A DNA stretch of 40,799 nucleotides from Thauera phenolivorans (GTDB lineage Bacteria; Pseudomonadota; Gammaproteobacteria; Burkholderiales; Rhodocyclaceae): positions 435,620 through 476,418 of the forward strand of contig NZ_MBFM01000004.1 of NCBI RefSeq assembly GCF_001696715.1, in the 5' to 3' direction. Shown here piece by piece: positions 28,193 to 38,131 of this stretch (the stretch's first letter is position 1; each line of letters begins with the position of its first letter). A program made the translations under genes and the position numbers. Under the pieces are notes generated by a model. That model was not told the DNA's origin. It did no database searches and saw nothing but the letters and a program-made list of their open reading frames with translations.

Positions 28193-28735
28193 TCACCCCC
28201 CGTGCGGCGGCCGCGCCAGCTTGCGCTGCAGGGTGCGGCGGTGCATCTGCAGGGCGCGCGCGGTGGCCGAGATGTTGCCGCCATGCTCCGCCAGGACGCG
28301 CTGGATGTGCTCCCACTCGAGCCGGTCGACCGACATCGGCGCCTCGGGCACCGCATCGTCGATGACGACCTCCTCCGCCTGCAACGCCTTGATGATCGCG
28401 TCCACATCGGCGGGCTTGGCGAGATACTGCACCGCGCCGAGCTTCACCGCGTCGACCGCGGTGGCGATGCTCGCATAGCCGGTGAGCACCAGAACACGCG
28501 CATCGGGATTGACCTCGAGCAGGGGCTGGATCAGGCGCAGGCCCGATTCGCCGCCGATGTTGAGGTCGAGGACGACGAACTCCGGCTCCTCCTGCTGTGC
28601 CAGACGCAGCGCCGCGGCCGAATCGTGCGCGCCGAGCGCCCGGAAGCCGCGATGCTCGAGCGCGCGCACCAGGATGCGGTTGAAGGCGGGGTCGTCGTCG
28701 ACCACCAGCAGCGATGGGCGGTTGTCGGTGTTCAT
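28193..28735 (-). CDS. regA: RegA/PrrA/ActR-type redox response regulator
   Basis: 180 residues. A receiver domain (about 8-120) with D57 as phospho-acceptor (VLDLN) and K107 (YLAKPAD) is joined to a Fis-type helix-turn-helix at 140-175 (EWEHIQRVLAEHGGNISATA, then MHRRTLQRKL). This short two-domain form without an AAA+ domain is the RegA family, global regulators of respiration, denitrification and carbon or nitrogen fixation in response to redox state. It overlaps its kinase gene by 4 nt. Its position beside nosZ suggests, but does not show, a role in N2O reduction. Confidence 0.92.
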   Translation of the reverse strand: MNTDNRPSLLVVDDDPAFNRILVRALEHRGFRALGAHDSAAALRLAQQEEPEFVVLDLNIGGESGLRLIQPLLEVNPDARVLVLTGYASIATAVDAVKLGAVQYLAKPADVDAIIKALQAEEVVIDDAVPEAPMSVDRLEWEHIQRVLAEHGGNISATARALQMHRRTLQRKLARPPHGG

Positions 28736-29985
28736 CGGGTCGTGTCCTGCGCGGGAAGGTCGATGCGCACTATCGTGCCACCGCCGGGCCGGGGCAGGAA
28801 CTCCATCCGCCCGCGGTGGTGCTCGATGGCGTCATGGGCGAGAAAGAGCCCTACCCCCATGCCGGACGACTTGCCCGCCCGCGCGCCGCTGATCGCGGCC
28901 GCGCTGAGCGCGGGCTCGATGCCGGGACCGCGGTCGGCCACCTCGAGCACCAGGCGCCCGTCGCGCAGTGCGGCACCGACCTCGACGCTGCCGGTGCTGG
29001 CATTGGCGGCATTGTCGATCACGTTGTGGAGCGCCTCGCCGAGGCTGTCGTCGACCACCAGCACGGCGTCGGCCGCCGCCGCGCTGCAGTCGAGCTCGGC
29101 CTTGCGCAACGGGCGCAGGTCTTGCCAGCGCGCCACCACGCCCGCCAGCCAGTCGCCCGCGCGAACCGGCCCGCCGCCTTCGGCGCGCTGCTGCCCGGCC
29201 TCGACGGTGAGGCCGTGCAGGATCGACTTGCAGTTGTCGATCTGAGTGCGCATCAGTGCCAGGTCCTCGCGCGTGTCGGGCGCGAGATCGGGGCGCTCGG
29301 CGAGCTCGTCGGCGAGCAGACGAAGGGTGCCGAGCGGCGTGCCGAGCCGATGCGCGGCGCCGGCGGCGAGCTTGCCGAGCGCCACCATGTAGGCGTCGCG
29401 CGCCCGCGCGGCGCGGGTGTCGGCGAGCTCGCGCTCGCGCTGCGAAAGCGCAGCGGTGAGCCGGGCGACGAACCACACCACGGTCGCCGCCGCCAGCGCG
29501 AAGCTCAGCCACATGCCGGCGAGGTGCCAGCGCATCGCCAGCTCGCGGTCGTCGATCGCCACCGGCAGGTGAAACTCCCACAGCAGGGAGTAGATCACCA
29601 CCGCCAGCAGCACCAGCAGCCAGGCCCGACGTGCGGGCAGGATCGTCGCCCCCACCGCGATCAGCGGCAGCAGCAGCGAGATCGCGGGATTGGTGGGTCC
29701 GCCGCTGAAATAGAGGAAGACGCCCCAGGCGAGGAGGTCGAGCGCCAGCTGCAAGAAGGCGCCGCGCACCCCGCCGAGCCAGCGGCCGGCGCCGGCCAGC
29801 AGGGCGAGATTGAGCCCCGCCAGCATGAGTACGACCGCAAGCAGCGGCGCCAGCGGCTGGGAGGGCGCGATCAGCGGCAGGGCGAACAGCCCGATGGCGA
29901 CCATGGCGACGACCGACAGCCAGCGCAGTTCGAACAGGCGAAATGTGTCGGCGACCGGCGAGTGGAGCGGCGTGGCTGCTTGCAT
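28732..29985 (-). CDS. regB: RegB/PrrB-type redox-sensing histidine kinase
   Basis: 417 residues. Six membrane helices (about 22-175) contain the quinone-linked motif SGGPTNP at 94-100 known from RegB. The H-box [15 protein letters not shown] holds H212, the N-box HNVIDNAANAS and the G-box DRGPGIEP lie at 320-358. C252 in DNCKSIL occupies the position of the redox-active cysteine of RegB. Unusually, the residue after H212 is R, while RegB proteins have E (HELGTP) as general base for phosphotransfer. The gene reads away from nosZ with 231 nt between the starts. Confidence 0.92.
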   Translation of the reverse strand: MQAATPLHSPVADTFRLFELRWLSVVAMVAIGLFALPLIAPSQPLAPLLAVVLMLAGLNLALLAGAGRWLGGVRGAFLQLALDLLAWGVFLYFSGGPTNPAISLLLPLIAVGATILPARRAWLLVLLAVVIYSLLWEFHLPVAIDDRELAMRWHLAGMWLSFALAAATVVWFVARLTAALSQRERELADTRAARARDAYMVALGKLAAGAAHRLGTPLGTLRLLADELAERPDLAPDTREDLALMRTQIDNCKSILHGLTVEAGQQRAEGGGPVRAGDWLAGVVARWQDLRPLRKAELDCSAAAADAVLVVDDSLGEALHNVIDNAANASTGSVEVGAALRDGRLVLEVADRGPGIEPALSAAAISGARAGKSSGMGVGLFLAHDAIEHHRGRMEFLPRPGGGTIVRIDLPAQDTTR

Positions 29986-30038: not shown

Positions 30039-30080
30039 TTGCTTTACATCAAGGTTGGCCGCCCTCCCCGTTCCTAGAAT
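30039..30080 (+). promoter_or_regulatory. FNR/DNR-activated promoter of nosZ
   Basis: The box TTGCT-TTAC-ATCAA (30039-30052) matches the FNR/DNR consensus TTGAT-N4-ATCAA at 9 of 10 positions. A -10 TAGAAT begins at 30075, 29.5 nt from the box centre, which is exactly the class II (-41.5) geometry. The predicted start is near 30087, leaving a leader of about 130 nt. Confidence 0.8.
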
Positions 30081-30089
30081 GCAGGTGCG

Positions 30090-30119
30090 ACAAAACGTCA
30101 CAGGACAAATTGTCACAGG
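30090..30119 (+). repeat. 15-nt tandem repeat in the nosZ leader
   Basis: ACAAAACGTCACAGG (30090-30104) and ACAAATTGTCACAGG (30105-30119) are adjacent and 13 of 15 identical. The second copy together with the preceding G forms the perfect palindrome GACAA-A-TTGTC (30104-30114). The repeat starts about 3 nt after the predicted transcription start, a place where a repressor or an RNA-binding protein could act. Confidence 0.75.
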
Positions 30120-30216
30120 GCAGTCGAGCGCGAACGAGCCCTGCACGCGCCGAGCGTACCACCGGCGAGCCAGACTGAATTACAGCGCAGTGCGCTGACA
30201 CGGGAGCCAAGCGATC

Positions 30217-32172
30217 ATGAACGAAGCCAGAATGAACCCGGTCGAGGAGATGCCCGACCCGAGCCGCCGCAAGTTCCTCAACACCGCCGCGCTCGCCGGT
30301 CTGGCCGGCGCCGGGCTGTCGGTGGGTCTGTCGGCCTGCAACAAGGAATCGGCACCCGCGCCTGCCGCCTCGGGCGGCGCACCCGCCGCCCCCGCCGCGG
30401 CCCATGCCGCGAGCGACATCAAGCTGCACATGGCGCCGGGCGAGCTCGACACCTATTACGGCGTGTGGTCGGGCGGCCACTCCGGCGAATGCCGTATCCT
30501 CGGCCTGCCCTCGGGACGCGAGATCAAGCGCATCCCGACCTTCAACATCGACCCGATGAGTGGCTGGGGCATCACCAACGAGTCGAAGAAGGTGATCGGC
30601 ACCCGTCCCGACGGCCAGCTCAAGTACAAGACCGGCGACACTCACCACATCCACGGCTCGTACACCGACGGCACCTACGACGGCAAGTACTTCTGGGTCA
30701 ACGACAAGATCCATGGCCGCGTCGCGCGCATCCGCGGCGACCGCTTCGAATGCGATGCGATCACCGAGATCCCGAACATCCAGGGTTTCCACGGCATCTT
30801 CTCGGACAAGCGCGACCCGGTCGATCCGGCGATCAACTACACCACCCGCGTGTTCTGCGGTAACGAGTTCCACATTCCGCAGCCGAACGACGGCCGCGAC
30901 CTCGACGATCCGACCAAGTACTACTGCCTGTTCACCTGCGTCGATGCCGAGACCATGGAAGTGCGCTGGCAGTGCAAGGTCGACGGCAACATGGACCTCG
31001 TCGCCAGCTCCTACGACGGACGCTTCGCCTGCTCCAACCAGTACAACACCGAGGGCGGCGCGCGCTACGAAGACATGATGTCGGCCGAGATGGACGCCTG
31101 CGTGTTCTTCGACATCGCCCGCATCGAGCAGGCGATCAAGGACGGCAAGTCCTTCACCGTCGGCGACTCCAACGTGCCCGTGGTCGACGGCACCAAGGCC
31201 GCCAACGCCGATCCGAAGACCGCGCTCACCGCCTACGTGCCCGTGCCGAAGAACCCGCACGGCGTCAATGCCAGCCCCGACGGCAAGTACATGATCTGTT
31301 CGGGCAAGCTGTCGCCCACCTGCACGGTGATCGAGGTGTCCAAGGTCGCCGACTTCCTCGACGGCAATCTCGACGACGTCCGCAAGTCGGTGGTCGCAGA
31401 GGTCGAAGTCGGCCTCGGCCCCCTGCACACCACCTACGACGGCCGCGGCAACGCCTTCACCACGCTCTTCCTCGACAGCCAGATCGTCAAGTGGAACATC
31501 GACGCCGCGATCAAGTTCCATGACGGCGACAAGTCGGTGCAGTACGTGGTCGACCGCATCGACGTGCATTACCAGCCGGGCCACATCAGCTCCGACATGG
31601 GCGAGACGAAGGAAGCCAGCGGCCAGTTCCTCGCGGTGGGCTGCAAGTTCTCCAAGGACCGCTTCCTGCCGGTCGGCCCGATGCACCCGGAAAACGAGCA
31701 GCTGATCGACATCCGCGGCGAGAAGATGGTGCTGCTCGCCGACCACCCGGTCCACCCCGAGCCGCACGACTTCGTCATCGTCCGCCGCGACATCATCAAG
31801 ACCTTCCAAGTGGCCGAACTCGACTGGCACCCGCTGGCGCTCAGGGACGCGAAGGAATCCGGCGTGTTCCGCGAGGGCAACAAGGTGACGGTGAAGATCG
31901 CCTCGCAGGCGCCAGCCTACAGTCTGCGCGAGTTCACCATCAAGCAGGGCGACGAGGTGACGATCATCCTCACCAACCTCGACAAGGTGGAAGACCTCAC
32001 CCACGGCTGGGCGATGCCGAAGTACGACATCAACTTCACGGTCAACCCGCAGGAGACCAAGTCGGTGACCTTCACCGCCGACAAGCCGGGCGTGTTCTGG
32101 TGCTACTGCACCCACTTCTGCCATGCGCTGCACCTCGAGATGCGCACGCGCATGATCGTCGAGCCCGCCTGA
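30217..32172 (+). CDS. nosZ: Nitrous-oxide reductase, clade I (Tat-exported)
   Basis: 651 residues. A Tat signal SRRKFL (16-21) with a hydrophobic stretch marks clade I. It reduces N2O to N2 in the periplasm. The seven CuZ histidines are visible: H143, H144 (DTHHIHG), H192 (GFHG), H348 (NPHG), H404 (PLHTT), H456 (QPGH) and H517 (EPHD). The C-terminal CuA domain supplies H596, C631, C635, H639 and M642 in CTHFCHALHLEM. Two differences from the well-studied Pseudomonas enzyme: the tryptophan that gives a backbone ligand is H633, and an extra cysteine C629 lies two residues before the CuA motif. The gene has its own FNR-type promoter and terminator. Confidence 0.98.
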   Translation: MNEARMNPVEEMPDPSRRKFLNTAALAGLAGAGLSVGLSACNKESAPAPAASGGAPAAPAAAHAASDIKLHMAPGELDTYYGVWSGGHSGECRILGLPSGREIKRIPTFNIDPMSGWGITNESKKVIGTRPDGQLKYKTGDTHHIHGSYTDGTYDGKYFWVNDKIHGRVARIRGDRFECDAITEIPNIQGFHGIFSDKRDPVDPAINYTTRVFCGNEFHIPQPNDGRDLDDPTKYYCLFTCVDAETMEVRWQCKVDGNMDLVASSYDGRFACSNQYNTEGGARYEDMMSAEMDACVFFDIARIEQAIKDGKSFTVGDSNVPVVDGTKAANADPKTALTAYVPVPKNPHGVNASPDGKYMICSGKLSPTCTVIEVSKVADFLDGNLDDVRKSVVAEVEVGLGPLHTTYDGRGNAFTTLFLDSQIVKWNIDAAIKFHDGDKSVQYVVDRIDVHYQPGHISSDMGETKEASGQFLAVGCKFSKDRFLPVGPMHPENEQLIDIRGEKMVLLADHPVHPEPHDFVIVRRDIIKTFQVAELDWHPLALRDAKESGVFREGNKVTVKIASQAPAYSLREFTIKQGDEVTIILTNLDKVEDLTHGWAMPKYDINFTVNPQETKSVTFTADKPGVFWCYCTHFCHALHLEMRTRMIVEPA

Positions 32173-32196
32173 TCCGGCGCGCCCGAGCAACACAGG

Positions 32197-32225
32197 ACAA
32201 GGGGCGAAAGCCCCTTGTTTCTTTT
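32197..32225 (+). terminator. Intrinsic terminator after nosZ
   Basis: ACAAGGGGC (32197-32205), GAAA tetraloop, GCCCCTTGT (32210-32218), then TTTCTTTT. It makes nosZ a largely monocistronic unit. Confidence 0.88.
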
Positions 32226-32261
32226 GGCACCAACGAAGTCCGCCCCCGCGTTCATCAGGAA

Positions 32262-32303
32262 TTGATGATCGGCAATTACACCTGCCGCGCCACCTCCTAG
32301 ACT
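32262..32303 (+). promoter_or_regulatory. FNR/DNR-type promoter of nosR
   Basis: TTGAT-GATC-GGCAA (32262-32275) keeps the left half-site and three bases of the right; the wider sequence is the symmetric AATTG-N8-CAATT. A weak -10, TAGACT, begins at 32298, again 29.5 nt from the box centre. Predicted start near 32310, 21 nt before the nosR ATG. Confidence 0.6.
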
Positions 32304-32330
32304 CCCGGGCATCTTCCAGCGGAGTGCATC

Positions 32331-34514
32331 ATGAAGTCCTTGTCCACCCTGCGCAGCCTCATCGCCGGGACCTTCCTCGCTGTCGCAGGCCTGCTGTCCC
32401 CCCTCCCCGCCGCGGCGCAGAGCGCCTATGAGGCCCCGCTGCCGGCCGACATCAACACCAACCCCGACCTGTGCGCCAGCCTGCCCTGCCAGGAGGTGCT
32501 GCCGGGCGCCGACAGCTTCTCGGAGCGGATGGGCAAGCCGAGCTACGTCGAAGCCTATCGCACCGACAACGGCGACAAGCAGCTGGTCGGCTACGTGTTC
32601 CTGTCCACCGACATCGTCGACATCCCGGCCTACTCCGGCAAGCCGGTGATCACCCTGATCGGCATGGACACCCAGGGCATCATCACGGGCACCAAGATCC
32701 TGCGCCACAGCGAGCCGATCCTGCTGCTTGGCATCCCCGAGAGCGTGCTGACGAAGTTCGTCAACCAGTACCTCGGCAAGTATGTCGGTGACAAGATCGA
32801 GATCGGCAAGGGGCGCGACGAGGAAGGCTACATCGGCCTCGACGCGATCACCGGCGCCACCGTCACGGTCATCGCGCAAAACCAGGTCGTGATGCGCTCG
32901 GGCGTGGCGATCGCGCGCCAGGTGGGCATCCTGAAGATCGAGCCGAAGCCGGCGATCCGCTTTTCGGCGCTGGACGAGAAGCTCGGCTGGGACCAGCTGG
33001 TCAAGGAAGGCAGCGTGCAGCGGCTCACGGTGAAGCCGGAGCAACTCGGTATGCCGCGCGACGACCAGCCCTATGTCGACATGTACTTCGGCTACCTGAA
33101 CACGCCCTCGGTCGGCAAGAGCGTGCTCGGCGACGGCGGCTACCGCAACCTGATGTCGCGCCTCGGACCCGACGACCATGCGATCTTCATCGTCTCCAAC
33201 GGCAGCGACACCTTCAAGGGCTCGGGCTTCGTGCGCGGCGGCATTTTCGACCGCGTGCAGGTGGCGCAGGACATGGACGCCTATACCTTCCGCGACCTCG
33301 ACTACCTCAACCTGTGGGGCCTGGAGGCAGCGGGCGCACCGTCCTACAAGGAATCGGCGATCTTCATCATCCGCGGACAGGGCTTCTCCGCCGCCTATCC
33401 ATGGAAGCTGGTCTTCCTCGCCAACAAGCTCGACCGCGAGACCGGTCACCGCGACTTCGTCAGCTTCGACCGCGAGTACTGGGTGCTCGACAAATACCAG
33501 GAAGCGGGCCGCCCCACGGTGGTCAAGCCGGATGCGCCCTGGGTGCGGGTGTGGAAGATGCGCGCCGTGGAGATCGGCCTGTTCACCGCGCTGCTGGTGG
33601 CGGTAGCGGTGGTCTACGCGAGCCGGGACGCGCTCACGCGACGCTCGACGCGCAAGAACAAGTGGCCTGTGAATGCCTTCAAGTACACCTTCTGGGTGAT
33701 CAGCATCGGTTTCGTCGGCTTCGGCCTGCTCGCCCAGCCCTCGATCACCCAGGTGCTCACCTGGTTCCATTCGCTGCTGTTCAAGTGGCAGTGGGAGCTC
33801 TTCCTCACCGACCCCTTCATCTTCCTGTTCTGGATCTTCATCATCCTCACCACCTTCGTGTGGGGTCGCGGCCTGTTCTGCGGCTGGATGTGCCCCTTCG
33901 GCTCGCTGTCGGAGCTGATCTACAAGGTGGCCGGCGCCATCGGCCTGAAGCGCTTCCAGTTCGCGCTGCCGATGAAGTGGCACAACCGCCTGAAGTGGAT
34001 CAAGTACGGCGTGTTCTTCGTGCTGCTCGCGGTGTCGGTGTTCTCGATGGGTCTGGCCGAGAAGCTCGCCGAGGTGGAGCCGTTCAAGACCACCTTCCTG
34101 GTCGGCATGTTCAACCGTGCCTGGCCCTACACCCTGTTCGTCGCGGTACTGCTCGGCCTGTCGATCTTCATCGAACGGCCGTTCTGCAAGTACCTGTGCC
34201 CGCTCGGTGCCTCGCTCGCGATGCCCTCGACCTTCCGCTGGTTCGGCCTCAAGCGCAAGCAGGAATGCAGCAGCTGCAAGGCCTGCGCGGTGGGCTGCGG
34301 CTCGCTCGCGATCGACGAGCACGGACGCATCGACCATCGCGAGTGCATGCACTGCCTCGACTGCATGATCCTGTACACCGACGAGCACGCCTGCCCGCCG
34401 CTGTCGCAGGAGCGCAAGCGCCGCACCAAGGCGGGCCTGCCGCTGACGCCGATCGGCAAGGACGGCTACTACATCCCGATCAAGCCGGTGCCGGCAGCCG
34501 CGCCCAGGGCCTGA
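32331..34514 (+). CDS. nosR: NosR, membrane flavo-iron-sulfur protein for N2O reduction
   Basis: 727 residues. A signal peptide (cleavage near AAAQS) leads to a periplasmic FMN-binding domain whose covalent flavin threonine is T177 in DAITGAT. After about residue 400 come membrane helices, the two CxxxCP motifs CGWMCPFG (C517, C521) and CKYLCPLG (C619, C623), and a cytoplasmic ferredoxin-like end with cysteine clusters from C646 (CSSCKACAVGC) and CMHCLDC. NosR passes quinol electrons towards NosZ and is needed for its maturation. ATG follows GGAG with 6 nt spacing. A small membrane protein gene follows after 28 nt. Confidence 0.97.
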   Translation: MKSLSTLRSLIAGTFLAVAGLLSPLPAAAQSAYEAPLPADINTNPDLCASLPCQEVLPGADSFSERMGKPSYVEAYRTDNGDKQLVGYVFLSTDIVDIPAYSGKPVITLIGMDTQGIITGTKILRHSEPILLLGIPESVLTKFVNQYLGKYVGDKIEIGKGRDEEGYIGLDAITGATVTVIAQNQVVMRSGVAIARQVGILKIEPKPAIRFSALDEKLGWDQLVKEGSVQRLTVKPEQLGMPRDDQPYVDMYFGYLNTPSVGKSVLGDGGYRNLMSRLGPDDHAIFIVSNGSDTFKGSGFVRGGIFDRVQVAQDMDAYTFRDLDYLNLWGLEAAGAPSYKESAIFIIRGQGFSAAYPWKLVFLANKLDRETGHRDFVSFDREYWVLDKYQEAGRPTVVKPDAPWVRVWKMRAVEIGLFTALLVAVAVVYASRDALTRRSTRKNKWPVNAFKYTFWVISIGFVGFGLLAQPSITQVLTWFHSLLFKWQWELFLTDPFIFLFWIFIILTTFVWGRGLFCGWMCPFGSLSELIYKVAGAIGLKRFQFALPMKWHNRLKWIKYGVFFVLLAVSVFSMGLAEKLAEVEPFKTTFLVGMFNRAWPYTLFVAVLLGLSIFIERPFCKYLCPLGASLAMPSTFRWFGLKRKQECSSCKACAVGCGSLAIDEHGRIDHRECMHCLDCMILYTDEHACPPLSQERKRRTKAGLPLTPIGKDGYYIPIKPVPAAAPRA

Positions 34515-34542
34515 GCCCCGACACTCTGACGAGGACAGAATC

Positions 34543-34968
34543 ATGATCGACCCCCGCAGCATGACCGAACCGGTGACGCCGCCCTATGCCGAAGGCGGCG
34601 CCCTGGGGCGCATCGGCGCCGAAATCTGGGACCACCTGTGGCCTTGGAGCCGAAGCGGCTTCCAGCGCCAGCGCGCGATCCAGGCGGCCGGCCTGGCGCT
34701 CGCGCTCGCCGCCACCCTCGTCTGGGTGCTGGCCGCGATGGGCGAACTCACCCCCGCCGCGATCATCGGCTGGTGGTTCGGCTGGAGCGCCTTCGAGGTC
34801 ATCGTCCGCCTCGGCTCCAAGCCCTACGTCAAGGAAGGGCCGTGGTGGGGCCAGCGCTACCGCAAGGCGAGCGTGATGGACATGGTCTGCTATGTGGGCT
34901 TCAAGAACCTGCTGATCGGCGCAACGCTGTTCATCGGCCTCAAGAGCCTCGGCCTGCTGGTGATCTGA
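34543..34968 (+). CDS. Small membrane protein of unknown function in the nos cluster
   Basis: 141 residues, not assigned to a named Nos family. Hydrophobic stretches near 46-66 and 68-88 and a third near 118-140 suggest three membrane helices; the first 40 residues (with AEIWDHLWPWSRSGFQRQRA as a landmark) are likely cytoplasmic. Between helices lies GSKPYVKEGPWWGQRYRKAS, rich in aromatic and basic residues. It starts 28 nt after nosR behind GAGGA, so it belongs to the nosR unit and could be a partner of NosR; this is inferred from position only. An ATG at 34561 is an alternative start. Confidence 0.8.
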   Translation: MIDPRSMTEPVTPPYAEGGALGRIGAEIWDHLWPWSRSGFQRQRAIQAAGLALALAATLVWVLAAMGELTPAAIIGWWFGWSAFEVIVRLGSKPYVKEGPWWGQRYRKASVMDMVCYVGFKNLLIGATLFIGLKSLGLLVI

Positions 34969-35036
34969 ACCCGCCTACCCTGCCCCGAATGAGGGCGGGA
35001 CGCGGCGGCCGACGCCGCTGACGGGCGCGCACCAGC

Positions 35037-35078
35037 TTCGCCCAGATCAAGGCAGACTGCGACATTGCGTCGCATAAT
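35037..35078 (+). promoter_or_regulatory. FNR/DNR-type promoter of the nosD operon
   Basis: TTCGC-CCAG-ATCAA (35037-35050) keeps a perfect right half-site and two bases of the left. A good -10, CATAAT, begins at 35073, 29.5 nt from the box centre, as at nosZ and nosR. Predicted start near 35085, 22 nt before the nosD ATG. Confidence 0.6.
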
Positions 35079-35106: not shown

Positions 35107-36393
35107 ATGCCCCTGCCCTCCCGTCTCTTCCGCCTCGTCGCGGCCATGGCCCTTGCGGCCACGCTCGCCCTGCCGGCCGCCGCCGCGGTGTGGCGGGTGC
35201 AGCCGGGCGAATCGGTGCAGGCCGCGATCGACGCCGCCGCCCCCGGCGACACCGTCGAGATCGCGCGCGGCCGCTACCCCGGCCATCTGCTGGTGGCCAA
35301 GCCGCTCACCCTGCGCGGCATCGAGCGCCCGACGATCGACGGCGAGCTGAAGGAAAACACCATCAGCGTGAAGGCCGAGGACGTCACCATCGAAGGCCTC
35401 ATCGTCGCCAACTCGGGCGGCGACACCCTCTACCAGCACGCTGGCATCTATATCTACCCGGGCTCGCACCGCGCCGTGGTGCGCAACTGCGACTTTTCCT
35501 ACACGCTGTTCGGGCTGTGGATCGAGAAGGCCGACGACGTCCTCATCGAGAACAACCTGATCACCGGCAAGCGCGACTTCGACTCGCCCAAGCGCGGCAA
35601 TGGCATCCAGCTCTACAACACCCAGCGCGCACGCATCATCGGCAACAACGTCAGCTTCGTGCGCGACGCGATCTATGTGGACGTCTCGCACGACGCGATC
35701 TTCCGTGGCAACAAGCTGCACCACAGCCGCTACGGCACCCACTACATGACCTCCTACCGCAACATCTGGGAGGACAACGAGACCTGGTACAACCGCGGTG
35801 GCCTGGCGCTGATGGAGGTGCGCGACCAGATCGTGCGCAACAACCGCGCCTGGGGCAATTCCGACCATGGCATCATGCTGCGCACGATCCAGGACGCGGT
35901 GATCGAGAACAACGTGGTCGCCGGCAACCAGCGCGGATTCTTCATCTACGACGCCGAATACAACGAGATCCGCGGCAATTCGGTGATCGACAACGTGGTC
36001 GGCATTCACCTGTGGGCGGGCTCGAAGAACAACCAGGTGGAAGGCAACGACTTCATCGCCAACCGCGAGCAGATCCGCTACGTCGCCGCGCGCGACATGG
36101 TGTGGGGCGAAAAGCTCGGCAACCACTGGAGCAACTACCTCGGCTGGGACCGCAACGGCGACGGCATCGGCGACGTCCGTTACGAAGCCAACGACATGGT
36201 CGACCGCCTGTCCTGGCGCCATCCGATGATGAAGCTGCTGCTGGCCAGCCCGGCGGTGCAGACCCTGCGCCTGGTGGGCCAGCAGTTCCCGCTGCTGCGC
36301 GCGCCGAGCATCGTCGACCCCAATCCGCGGATGACGCCGCACAACCCTGAATGGAGCCAATGGCGTGGCCGATATTTCCCCCGCTCCGACTGA
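35107..36393 (+). CDS. nosD: NosD, periplasmic copper-site maturation protein
   Basis: 428 residues. A signal peptide (cleavage near PAAAA-VW) is followed by a right-handed beta-helix made of short repeats of the CASH type, seen as recurrent N-x-[IV]-x-x-N stretches such as IENNLITG, IIGNNVSF, IVRNNRAWGN and IENNVVAGN between about 90 and 330. NosD works in the periplasm with the NosFY ABC transporter to build the sulfide-bridged CuZ centre of NosZ. The start at 35107 is chosen because an earlier in-frame ATG at 35065 lies upstream of the predicted transcription start. The end overlaps nosF by 29 nt. Confidence 0.95.
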   Translation: MPLPSRLFRLVAAMALAATLALPAAAAVWRVQPGESVQAAIDAAAPGDTVEIARGRYPGHLLVAKPLTLRGIERPTIDGELKENTISVKAEDVTIEGLIVANSGGDTLYQHAGIYIYPGSHRAVVRNCDFSYTLFGLWIEKADDVLIENNLITGKRDFDSPKRGNGIQLYNTQRARIIGNNVSFVRDAIYVDVSHDAIFRGNKLHHSRYGTHYMTSYRNIWEDNETWYNRGGLALMEVRDQIVRNNRAWGNSDHGIMLRTIQDAVIENNVVAGNQRGFFIYDAEYNEIRGNSVIDNVVGIHLWAGSKNNQVEGNDFIANREQIRYVAARDMVWGEKLGNHWSNYLGWDRNGDGIGDVRYEANDMVDRLSWRHPMMKLLLASPAVQTLRLVGQQFPLLRAPSIVDPNPRMTPHNPEWSQWRGRYFPRSD

Positions 36394-37306
36394 AGCCGGC
36401 AACCCGGTGATCTTCGCCCGCGGGGTGCACAAGCACTACGGGGCGATCCACGCGGTCGATGGCGTCGACCTCGACATCCGCGCCGGCGAGCTGTTCGGCC
36501 TGATCGGCCACAACGGCGCGGGCAAGAGCACGATGTTCAAGATGATGCTCGGCCTGATCCCGCTCACCGCCGGCGAGATCCGCATCGACGGCGCCAGCGT
36601 CGTCGGCGGCGACTTCCGCGCGGTGCGGCGCAAGGTCGGCTACCTGCCCGAGAACATCGTGCTCTACGACAACCTCAACGGGCTCGAGACCCTGCAGTTC
36701 TTCGCCCGCCTGAAGGGCGTCTCGAGCGCCGACAACCCCCGCCTGCTCGAACGCGTGGGGCTCGCCCATGCGGCCAAGCGGCGCGTCCGCGAGTATTCCA
36801 AGGGCATGCGGCAGCGACTCGGTTTCGCCCAGGCGCTGCTCGGCCGGCCGCGCATCCTGTTCCTTGACGAGCCCACCACCGGCCTCGACCCGGAGGCGAT
36901 CCGCGGCTTCTACGCGATCCTGCGCGAGCTGCGCGATGAGGGCGTGACGATGGTGATCACCTCGCACATCCTCGCCGAGATCCAGGAGCGGGTGGACCGG
37001 CTGTCGATCATGGCCGCAGGCAAGGTGCAGGCGACCGGCACGGTGCAGGCGCTGCGCGAGCGCATGAACCTGCCGCTGCGCTTCGAACTGCAGCTGGCGC
37101 CGGGCGCATTCGATACCGTGCGCGCCACCCTCGCCGACCTGCCGGTGAGCGCGATCGAGGCGCGCGACGGGGGTCTCGCCCTGCGCTGCGGGCGGGAGGC
37201 CAAGATGAAGGTGCTCGCCGCACTGTCCTCGCTCGGCGATCTGGTGCGCGACCTCACGGTGCGCGAGCCCTCGCTCGAGGACGTGTTCTTCGGCTTTTCG
37301 GATTAA
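36365..37306 (+). CDS. nosF: NosF, ATPase of the NosDFY copper-site assembly transporter
   Basis: 313 residues. Walker A GHNGAGKS (48-55), signature YSKGMRQRLGFAQ and Walker B ILFLDEPTTGLD are present, and a C-terminal extension of about 90 residues follows the ATPase core as in NosF. It energises NosY. The start is a GTG at 36365, supported by GGAG 8 nt upstream; the ATG five bases before it is out of frame. Overlap with nosD implies coupled translation. Confidence 0.95.
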   Translation: MADISPAPTEAGNPVIFARGVHKHYGAIHAVDGVDLDIRAGELFGLIGHNGAGKSTMFKMMLGLIPLTAGEIRIDGASVVGGDFRAVRRKVGYLPENIVLYDNLNGLETLQFFARLKGVSSADNPRLLERVGLAHAAKRRVREYSKGMRQRLGFAQALLGRPRILFLDEPTTGLDPEAIRGFYAILRELRDEGVTMVITSHILAEIQERVDRLSIMAAGKVQATGTVQALRERMNLPLRFELQLAPGAFDTVRATLADLPVSAIEARDGGLALRCGREAKMKVLAALSSLGDLVRDLTVREPSLEDVFFGFSD

Positions 37307-37315
37307 GGGGGAAGC

Positions 37316-38131
37316 ATGGAGTTCTCGCAGATCGCCACCATCGCCGGCAAGGAATTCTGGGACCGCATCCGCAACCGCTGGGTGCTCGCGGTGGCGCTGG
37401 TGTTTACCGCGTTCGCACTGTCGATCGCGTATTTCGGCGCCGCCCAGCAGGGCACGGTCGGCTTCCGCTCGATCGAGGTCACGATCGCCAGCCTGGTCAG
37501 CCTGGTCATCTACCTGATCCCGCTGATCGCGCTGCTGCTCGGCTTCGACGCGATCGTCGGCGAGCGCGAACGCGGCTCGCTCGACCTGTTGCTGTCGATG
37601 CCGATCACCCGCGGCGAGCTGCTGCTCGGCAAGTACCTCGGCCTGGCGGGCGCGCTCGCCTTCTCCACCATCGCCGGCTTCGGCCTCGTCGGCATCGTGC
37701 TGTCGGCCCAGCTCGACCTCAACGCGCTGTTCCACTACTTCGGTTTCATGCTCAGCTCGGTGCTGCTCGGCTGCGCCTTCCTCAGCCTGGCGGTGATGCT
37801 GTCGGTGTTCGCCTCCGACCGTACCCGCGCCTCCGGCATGGCGATCGCGATGTGGTTCTTCTTCGTGCTGGTGTTCGACCTTTTGCTGCTCGGGGTGCTG
37901 GTGGTGACCGCCGGCCAGTGGGGCGGGGAGGCCCTGCCCTACATGCTCCTGCTGAACCCGGCCGACGTGTTCCGCATCCTCAACATCTTCTCGCTGGAAG
38001 ACGTCCGCACCCTGTACGGGCTGTCCACCGTGTTCCCGCCGAGCCTCGCCCGGCCCTGGCTGCTGGGCCTGGTGATGCTCGCCTGGATCGCCGCTCCGCT
38101 GGCGATCGCGAGCTGGCGCTTCCGGCGCTGA
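37316..38131 (+). CDS. nosY: NosY, ABC-2 type permease
   Basis: 271 residues with six predicted membrane helices, beginning after FWDRIRNRWV and including a conserved DAIVGERERGSLDLLLSMPI segment (landmark: ERERGSLDLLLS) after the second helix, typical of ABC-2 permeases. With NosF and NosD it forms the complex needed for the CuZ site, thought to pass a sulfur species to the periplasm. The ATG follows GGGGAA, 9 nt after nosF. Confidence 0.95.
   Translation: MEFSQIATIAGKEFWDRIRNRWVLAVALVFTAFALSIAYFGAAQQGTVGFRSIEVTIASLVSLVIYLIPLIALLLGFDAIVGERERGSLDLLLSMPITRGELLLGKYLGLAGALAFSTIAGFGLVGIVLSAQLDLNALFHYFGFMLSSVLLGCAFLSLAVMLSVFASDRTRASGMAIAMWFFFVLVFDLLLLGVLVVTAGQWGGEALPYMLLLNPADVFRILNIFSLEDVRTLYGLSTVFPPSLARPWLLGLVMLAWIAAPLAIASWRFRR

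Follow-up and report, generated by a model that had tools for sequence, protein, structure and literature searches.

What controls the timing of nitrous oxide (N2O) reductase synthesis in a denitrifier is the question raised by the nos cluster of Thauera phenolivorans, which lies in a 40.8-kb stretch of contig NZ_MBFM01000004.1 (40,799 nucleotides; hereafter the window). N2O is a potent greenhouse gas, and wastewater plants commonly harbour denitrifiers of the Thauera type. The escape of N2O depends on the timing of nosZ expression relative to the N2O-producing steps. In the window, a regA-like and a regB-like gene on the minus strand are followed by nosZ, nosR, orf141, nosD, nosF, nosY and, further on, nosL. 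An initial annotation of this DNA had proposed that nosZ, nosR and nosD head three units graded by one FNR/DNR-type regulator. Our analysis of the sequence points, with moderate confidence, to a different arrangement, in which FNR/DNR-type activation of three units would be combined with braking of nosZ and nosD by a RegA-like protein dedicated to nos.

The three promoters share one geometry. Both strands of the window were scanned for an FNR/DNR-type box (at least 7 of 10 matches) paired with a -10 hexamer (at least 4 of 6 matches, with A2 and T6), and the only pairs with 29.5 nucleotides (nt) from box centre to hexamer were those upstream of nosZ, nosR and nosD, all on the plus strand. The nosZ box, TTGCT-TTAC-ATCAA, lies at 30039..30052 (centre 30045.5; 9/10 matches) and is followed by TAGAAT at 30075..30080; the nosR box, TTGAT-GATC-GGCAA, lies at 32262..32275 (centre 32268.5; 8/10 matches) and is followed by TAGACT at 32298..32303; and the nosD box, TTCGC-CCAG-ATCAA, lies at 35037..35050 (centre 35043.5; 7/10 matches) and is followed by CATAAT at 35073..35078. 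These are the boxes and hexamers described in the initial annotation, and re-reading and recomputation confirmed both their positions and their common spacing. Each of the other spacings from 21.5 to 38.5 nt gave 0 to 3 pairs in the window at the same threshold. In first-order Markov versions of the three intergenic regions, a pair at 29.5 nt arose in 0.25%, 0.15% and 0% of 4000 trials, figures that are generous to the finding because the thresholds were fixed after the sites were known. All three sites have the two marks of a class II FNR/DNR promoter, a two-fold box related to TTGAT-N4-ATCAA and a box centre about 29.5 nt before the -10 element. The nosZ, nosR and nosD promoters appear to be of the FNR/DNR type with class II geometry, with predicted transcription starts 41.5 nt from the box centres, at 30087 (nosZ), 32310 (nosR) and 35085 (nosD).

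Several FNR-family proteins encoded in the genome are candidate activators for these boxes, with FNR and DNR not told apart. They comprise one FNR (L081), whose closest solved relatives are FNR regulators, and two DNR-like proteins (L082 and L086), for which DNR was the best solved relative; the nearest NCBIfam model of L082 was FtrB, below cut-off. A weaker candidate, L084, had DNR as its third match. A further box with a -10 element at 29.5 nt (TTGATCTTGGTTAA, TAAAGT) was observed at L121 8044 (G000 C7), in a stretch with cytochrome d1-like genes.

The class II geometry is conserved. From named genomes, 80 of 244 NosZ relatives were kept, giving together with the window 1.38 Mb of DNA, in which 21 loci (window included) have regBA beside nosZ and 60 do not. 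The distance from box centre to -10 element was left free between 19.5 and 40.5 nt, making this test less open to post-hoc bias. By far the most frequent spacing was 29.5 nt for nosZ and nosR, and also for nosD in the regBA-adjacent loci. In these loci it was found at 18/21 nosZ, 21/21 nosR and 8/18 nosD promoters, and in loci without adjacent regBA at 22/60, 10/55 and 0/47, respectively. The class II reading of the three nos units is thereby supported in relatives, including at nosR and nosD, the two boxes whose conservation the initial annotation had made decisive. Exceptions at nosZ were two loci off by one base (L021 and L022) and one without a site (L033). Among the ten nosD exceptions, three (L007, L009 and L026) have the box with CACACT, one match under the -10 threshold, and one (L034) is off in spacing by one base. 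No such nosD promoter was found in the other six (L016, L021, L022, L023, L033 and L035), where the gap between orf141 and nosD is 8-46 nt. The nosD promoter thus belongs to some of the lineages only, and occurs where this gap is longer.

Box scores were compared across the loci with a site (20 for nosZ, 21 for nosR and 12 for nosD, window included), and the median was 8/10 at each promoter. The promoter-proximal ATCAA half is intact in 20/20 nosZ and 12/12 nosD boxes. At nosR it is the distal TTGAY half that is intact (21/21), and the opposite half reads RACAA in 20/21; only the window departs from this, with GGCAA. This suggests that every promoter has its own conserved box asymmetry. Because the conserved feature is which half of the box is degenerate, ranking the promoters by affinity is disfavoured.

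A single regulator, as initially proposed, proved to be an incomplete description, since nosZ and nosD, and not nosR, bear a second conserved site that matches the RegA family. This is a palindrome of the general form TGCGAC-N5-GTCRCA, found 3' of the -10 element at nosZ and overlapping it at nosD. The first nosZ copy (TGCGAC-N5-GTCACA; 30086..30102, plus strand) begins one base upstream of the predicted +1 and extends to +16. A weaker, partly conserved tandem copy with a GAC-N5-GTC core (30101..30117, plus strand) lies 15 nt downstream of it, and the nosD copy (TGCGAC-ATTGC-GTCGCA; 35058..35074, plus strand) occupies -27 to -11. When nosZ leaders were lined up, a block TGCGACAAAACGNCACAGG directly 3' of the -10 element was more conserved than the box, followed by the weaker copy and then by no further conservation. 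Anchoring the alignment on TGCGACA gave an advantage to the opening letters of the block, but 0 of 43 sequences (29 distinct) lacked that heptamer.

The palindromes agree with an independently published motif, the consensus GNGRCRTTNNGNCGC of Bradyrhizobium RegR, a member of the RegA/PrrA family (quoted in PMC5506826). Exact matches at 30087-30101 (minus strand; nosZ) and 35059-35073 (nosD) are the only two in the window, where 0.55 are expected and two were reached in 7/100 shuffles. The window and its 80 relatives together contain 36 exact matches. The 250 nt upstream of nosZ account for 22 of these, those upstream of nosD for 8 and those upstream of nosR for 0, with 6 elsewhere; about 1.4 are expected in the three upstream sets combined, against 30 observed at nosZ and nosD. 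The form TGCGRC-N5-GYCRCR is present upstream of nosZ in 21/21 regBA-adjacent loci. We also analyzed 29 genomes of the genus Thauera, 24 of them with regA; this set and the relative loci overlap in species, so that their counts are not independent. All 23 regB-nosZ regions scored (window included; L177 was not scorable) have an exact match to the consensus, and 21 have a class II box. Upstream of nosD, 24 regions were scored (two more were without a start), and 11 have an exact palindrome and 2 a palindrome with one mismatch; all 13 fall within the 15 regions that have a class II box (-10 element at least 3/6).

A stricter form of the motif, TGYGRCRTTNNGYCGC, was drawn up after the nosZ and nosD sites were known. 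It occurs at three places in this genome, namely nosZ, nosD and the gap between coxB and a transporter gene. The 24 regA-bearing genomes gave 58 matches, 33 of them at nos by place (23 nosZ and 10 nosD), and the five RegA-less genomes gave 1 match versus 4 for the reversed-pattern control. By this motif, nosZ and nosD are the only conserved targets seen in the genus. A broad RegA regulon was considered and rejected on the same motif, since the 25 matches away from nos in the regA-bearing genomes equal the 25 of the control. The palindrome near coxB, the sole strict one of the genome outside nos, lies with a perfect FNR box (TTGATGAAAATCAA) in a divergent gap shared with an Na/Pi-transporter-like gene (L118 4918-5164; G000 C9 ~355917-356163). 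We keep it only as a lead; coxB adjoins none of the 11 other strict off-nos sites that could be checked, of 25.

A possible source of the corresponding regulator lies next to nosZ. The regA-like response regulator gene (28193..28735, minus strand) has the Pfam domains Response_reg and HTH_8 (on 28202-28735). The best NCBIfam model for its product is ActR/PrrA/RegA (NF033791), at 192.8 bits and under the 250-bit cut-off, and in its Fis-type helix-turn-helix the recognition stretch MHRRTLQR is the same as that of PrrA 1umq in the alignment. The regB-like sensor histidine kinase gene (28732..29985, minus strand), which is divergent from nosZ, has HisKA and HATPase_c domains, and its product best matches the ActS/PrrB/RegB model (NF033792), at 182.2 bits and under the 350-bit cut-off. 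The quinone motif of RegB, quoted as GGXXNPF in PMC8191878, is replaced by GGPTNPA in this kinase. Because of the scores under cut-off and of GGPTNPA, we name the pair RegBA-like and do not treat the kinase as a RegB equivalog. In the 21 nos-linked RegB loci the motif reads GGXXNPA in 19, GGXXNPL in 2 and GGXXNPF in 0, and signal sensing by the nos-linked kinases may differ from that of classical RegB. The Cys of a Q-x3-C-x2-I motif, which may be the redox-active cytosolic Cys of RegB, is present in 19/21 of these loci, with none seen in L020 (a partial gene) and L033.

The regA gene co-occurs with the nos cluster; its association with the palindrome is weaker. RegA (at least 76% identity) was found in 24/29 genus genomes and RegB (at least 55% identity) in 23. 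All 24 genomes with a clade I nos match have RegA, and the five that have no such match are exactly those from which it is missing (Fisher's test, 8e-6; 3e-4 without the two nos-less genomes that are less than 80% complete). None of these five has a close NosD, and none has a NosZ exceeding about 40% identity. A single NosZ at 39-40%, clade II-like by identity only, is present in each of G008, G011 and G013, whereas G012 and G016 have no NosZ. RegA was not found in G008, G011 and G013, in which the sole NosZ is clade II-like. Two regA-bearing genomes have partial sets; G022 has regBA and nosZ with only a weak NosD match (E 3.9e-5), and G021 (a 77% complete assembly) has NosD and RegA without a RegB or NosZ match. 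Clade II-like NosZ of about 40% identity was observed in G003, G006, G008, G011, G013 and G023.

Among the 60 nosZ loci without adjacent regBA, the palindrome is present in 12, including Zoogloea, Thiobacillus and gammaproteobacterial loci, and absent in 48. RegA was searched for in 10 palindrome-bearing and 11 palindrome-free genomes of this kind; two adjacent loci served as positive controls, and RegA was recovered in each. It was detected in 9/10 of the palindrome-bearing genomes (49-75% identity). In Azoarcus indigens and three Aromatoleum/Azoarcus genomes tested, the FNR-type box is kept, no palindrome was found, and RegA matches were to the receiver domain only, with no full-length RegA.

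What is seen in the DNA comprises the boxes, spacing, palindromes, conservation and co-occurrence with regA; from this we infer the activator, the binding of RegA, whether RegA represses or activates, and the signal, as follows. The units nosZ, nosR-orf141 and nosDFY would each start at a class II FNR/DNR-type promoter with an activator centred at about -41.5, and low oxygen and/or nitric oxide (NO) would switch on all three. The RegBA-like pair would provide a further input, acting on nosZ and nosD and not on nosR. RegA would bind the 17-bp palindrome in the core promoter, from about +1 to +16 at nosZ (with the weaker site extending to +31) and from -27 to -11 at nosD, and would act as a redox-set brake. 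Expression of N2O reductase and of the genes for its maturation would be withheld until the respiratory chain reports a suitable state. NosR could then be made earlier than N2O reductase. A brake is the most likely sign because a RegA dimer at both palindromes would clash with RNA polymerase. This preference is founded on promoter anatomy, and the sign of the RegA effect is its weakest step. A precedent exists in Rhodobacter capsulatus, where RegA is described as repressing nosXLYFDZ and nosR aerobically (PMC5359404). We also considered whether another promoter lies 3' of the nosZ palindromes, and rejected this because no -10 element is conserved there in the aligned nosZ leaders.

We put forward more tentatively the broader idea that in Thauera and its close relatives the RegBA-like pair, of a kind that elsewhere regulates globally in response to redox state, now serves the clade I nos cluster as a private switch. 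The pair travels with the cluster, it was not found in Thauera genomes where only clade II-like NosZ is present, and the only conserved operators seen in the genus sit in the nosZ and nosD core promoters; it would gate FNR/DNR-driven N2O reductase but not NosR transcription. If this is true, redox gating dedicated to nosZ and nosD, with nosR left out, would offer a direct and testable reason for the timing of nosZ expression, and the locus would show cleanly how a two-component family of global scope can be narrowed down to one gene cluster. The two small palindromes are mutable targets for testing such a gate.

Several observations weigh against the brake and the private switch. Co-occurrence within the genus is partly expected from adjacency, as linked genes are gained and lost together and relatives are not independent, and only two of the RegA-less genomes are near complete (G008 100% and G013 99%, versus G011 89%, G012 68% and G016 77%). 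Of the 15 nosD promoters in the genus that have a class II box, two show a decayed palindrome, and genome-wide the loose 15-mer consensus does not stand out from the control (20 vs 18 for the reversed pattern). In the quinone motif the RegB-like protein has no Phe, and the two members of the pair score under the NCBIfam cut-offs. RegA is also present in 4/11 palindrome-free genomes (45-50% identity), against 9/10 with the palindrome, which makes the link outside regBA-adjacent loci a modest one (p 0.024); a cut at E<1e-44 separates the groups better (9/10 vs 0/11, p 3e-5), but it was set afterwards, within a narrow gap (1.4e-45 vs 3.5e-42). One palindrome-bearing genome, a Thiobacillus metagenome-assembled genome, gave no RegA match. 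Finally, the sign of control is positive in reports on other bacteria: RegR activates nos in Bradyrhizobium japonicum and binds a nosR promoter fragment (PMC4064962), and strong positive control of nosZ by RegA is described in Burkholderia pseudomallei (PMC8191878).

These reports favor an alternative in which RegA, bound at the same palindromes, co-activates nosZ and nosD with an FNR/DNR-type protein, for example through core-promoter bending or a second start site, and the RegR-modulated second start site P2 described at B. japonicum norC (PMC4064962) fits such a mechanism. Co-activation is a possibility that we nevertheless judge less likely than the brake, given that the sites overlap +1 at nosZ and the -10 element at nosD, that the nosZ palindromes have no conserved -10 element downstream, and that at nosD the palindrome is only 32 nt from the ATG. 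The palindrome might instead be the operator of another regulator whose site resembles the RegR consensus or, at nosZ, a leader RNA element. The looseness of that consensus, uninformative genome-wide, the 12 palindrome-bearing loci without adjacent regBA and the RegA proteins of palindrome-free genomes are all compatible with another regulator. Yet RegA is encoded elsewhere in nearly all of the palindrome-bearing genomes tested, the Azoarcus and Aromatoleum genomes tested lack the palindrome and full-length RegA alike, and the nosD copy lies upstream of the predicted start and so outside the RNA, which together leave this explanation improbable.

The initial proposal that one FNR/DNR-type regulator is graded by box quality, with nosZ most sensitive and no second regulator, agrees with the window itself, where nosZ has the best box (9/10 vs 8 and 7). 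This order is not kept across relatives: in 20 loci, window included, the nosZ box scores above the nosR box in 6, equal to it in 9 and below it in 5. Grading by box quality was rejected on this ground, and with a conserved RegA-type palindrome at nosZ and nosD only, we consider the one-regulator explanation very improbable. Chance could be invoked because the thresholds and the strict motif were set with the sites already known; the conservation of both spacing and palindromes makes it negligible that they are meaningless. The brake on nosZ and nosD remains the explanation that we prefer.

Parts of this arrangement are already known, namely a nos cluster divided into three units with control of the DNR type, FNR/DNR boxes that precede nosZ, and nos control by the RegA family. 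In Pseudomonas stutzeri, three nos units (nosR, nosZ and nosDFYLtatE) are described as NO-induced via DnrD, and NosR is needed for nosZ and nosD transcription (PMC5582078). The T. phenolivorans cluster is similar in its three units and DNR-type control, but differs in the order nosZ-nosR-orf141-nosD, in the regBA-like genes beside nosZ and in the RegA-type palindromes of two promoters. The nosR promoter of Bradyrhizobium diazoefficiens is reported to have a FixK2-like box (TTGATCCAGCGCAA) with starts at 40.5 and 67.5, and RegR binds the fragment. It resembles the promoters described here in its FNR-family box with a degenerate right half, its near class II distance and its RegR-family input. 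There, however, nosRZDFYLX is described as one polycistronic unit, RegSR is a global activator, and the putative RegR boxes (-73 and -39 relative to the start codon) are imperfect. Rhodobacter capsulatus shares aerobic, RegA-family repression of the same genes, whereas its RegA is a global regulator, and the available text of that report does not place operators in nos core promoters (PMC5359404).

Among Betaproteobacteria, a DNR regulon with CTTGATnnnnATCAAG upstream of nirS, nirK, norB and nosZ has been described (PMC1274295). It is similar to our locus in its DNR-type box upstream of nosZ; the main text does not name Thauera, and the available portions mention no RegA site or -10 spacing (PMC1274295). 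In the betaproteobacterium 'Ca. Accumulibacter', an FNR motif is reported upstream of nar, nir, nos and cbb3, and RegAB is encoded (PMC6446978). The two systems are alike in the FNR-type motif upstream of nos and differ in that its authors expressly note the lack of an identified RegAB binding site there, whereas we find candidate RegA sites in two nos promoters. In the titles and opening abstract lines of the open-access papers listed by our searches, we found no report of a nos-dedicated RegBA-like pair beside nosZ in Thauera with operators in the nosZ and nosD core promoters.

The genes of the cluster lie on the plus strand. The nosZ gene (30217..32172) encodes a clade I N2O reductase dependent on twin-arginine translocation (TIGR04244, 1025 bits; cut-off 625), and a terminator-like intrinsic hairpin follows it at 32200..32216. 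For nosR (32331..34514) the best model is NosR NF046105, at 616 bits and under the 1000-bit cut-off. The conserved orf141 (34543..34968), found in many of the 80 relative loci, had no Pfam or NCBIfam match at E 0.001. The nosD gene (35107..36393) matches TIGR04247, and nosF and nosY (36365..38131; ABC_tran and ABC2_membrane_2), which keep their order in relatives, are named from position and not from a Nos-specific model. A terminator-like hairpin is present in the nosZ-nosR gap in 15/21 regBA-adjacent loci, window included, and in the orf141-nosD gap in 12/18, the window not among them; in three of these 12 (L016, L021 and L022) the gap is 14-46 nt and the hairpin may be partly coding. The initial view of three units in place of one operon holds in that three transcription initiation points are likely, and needs qualifying in that read-through from nosR-orf141 into nosD is possible in this window.

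The cluster looks mosaic. Compared with Thauera L001, NosZ has 92% identity but NosR 76%, and compared with L007 and L009, NosR has 86% identity and NosZ 84% and 83%. The nosR box is close to that of L028, and the nosD promoter is close to that of L058. Some Thauera have extra nosZ-nosD copies (L004 and L006, also G003 C98 and G023 C15; L006 and L034 are from one strain). In the available DNA of L004 and L006 no regBA or nosR was seen; their nosZ promoters keep the box and -10 element at 29.5 nt and have no palindrome, and they offer a natural comparison without the RegA-type site.

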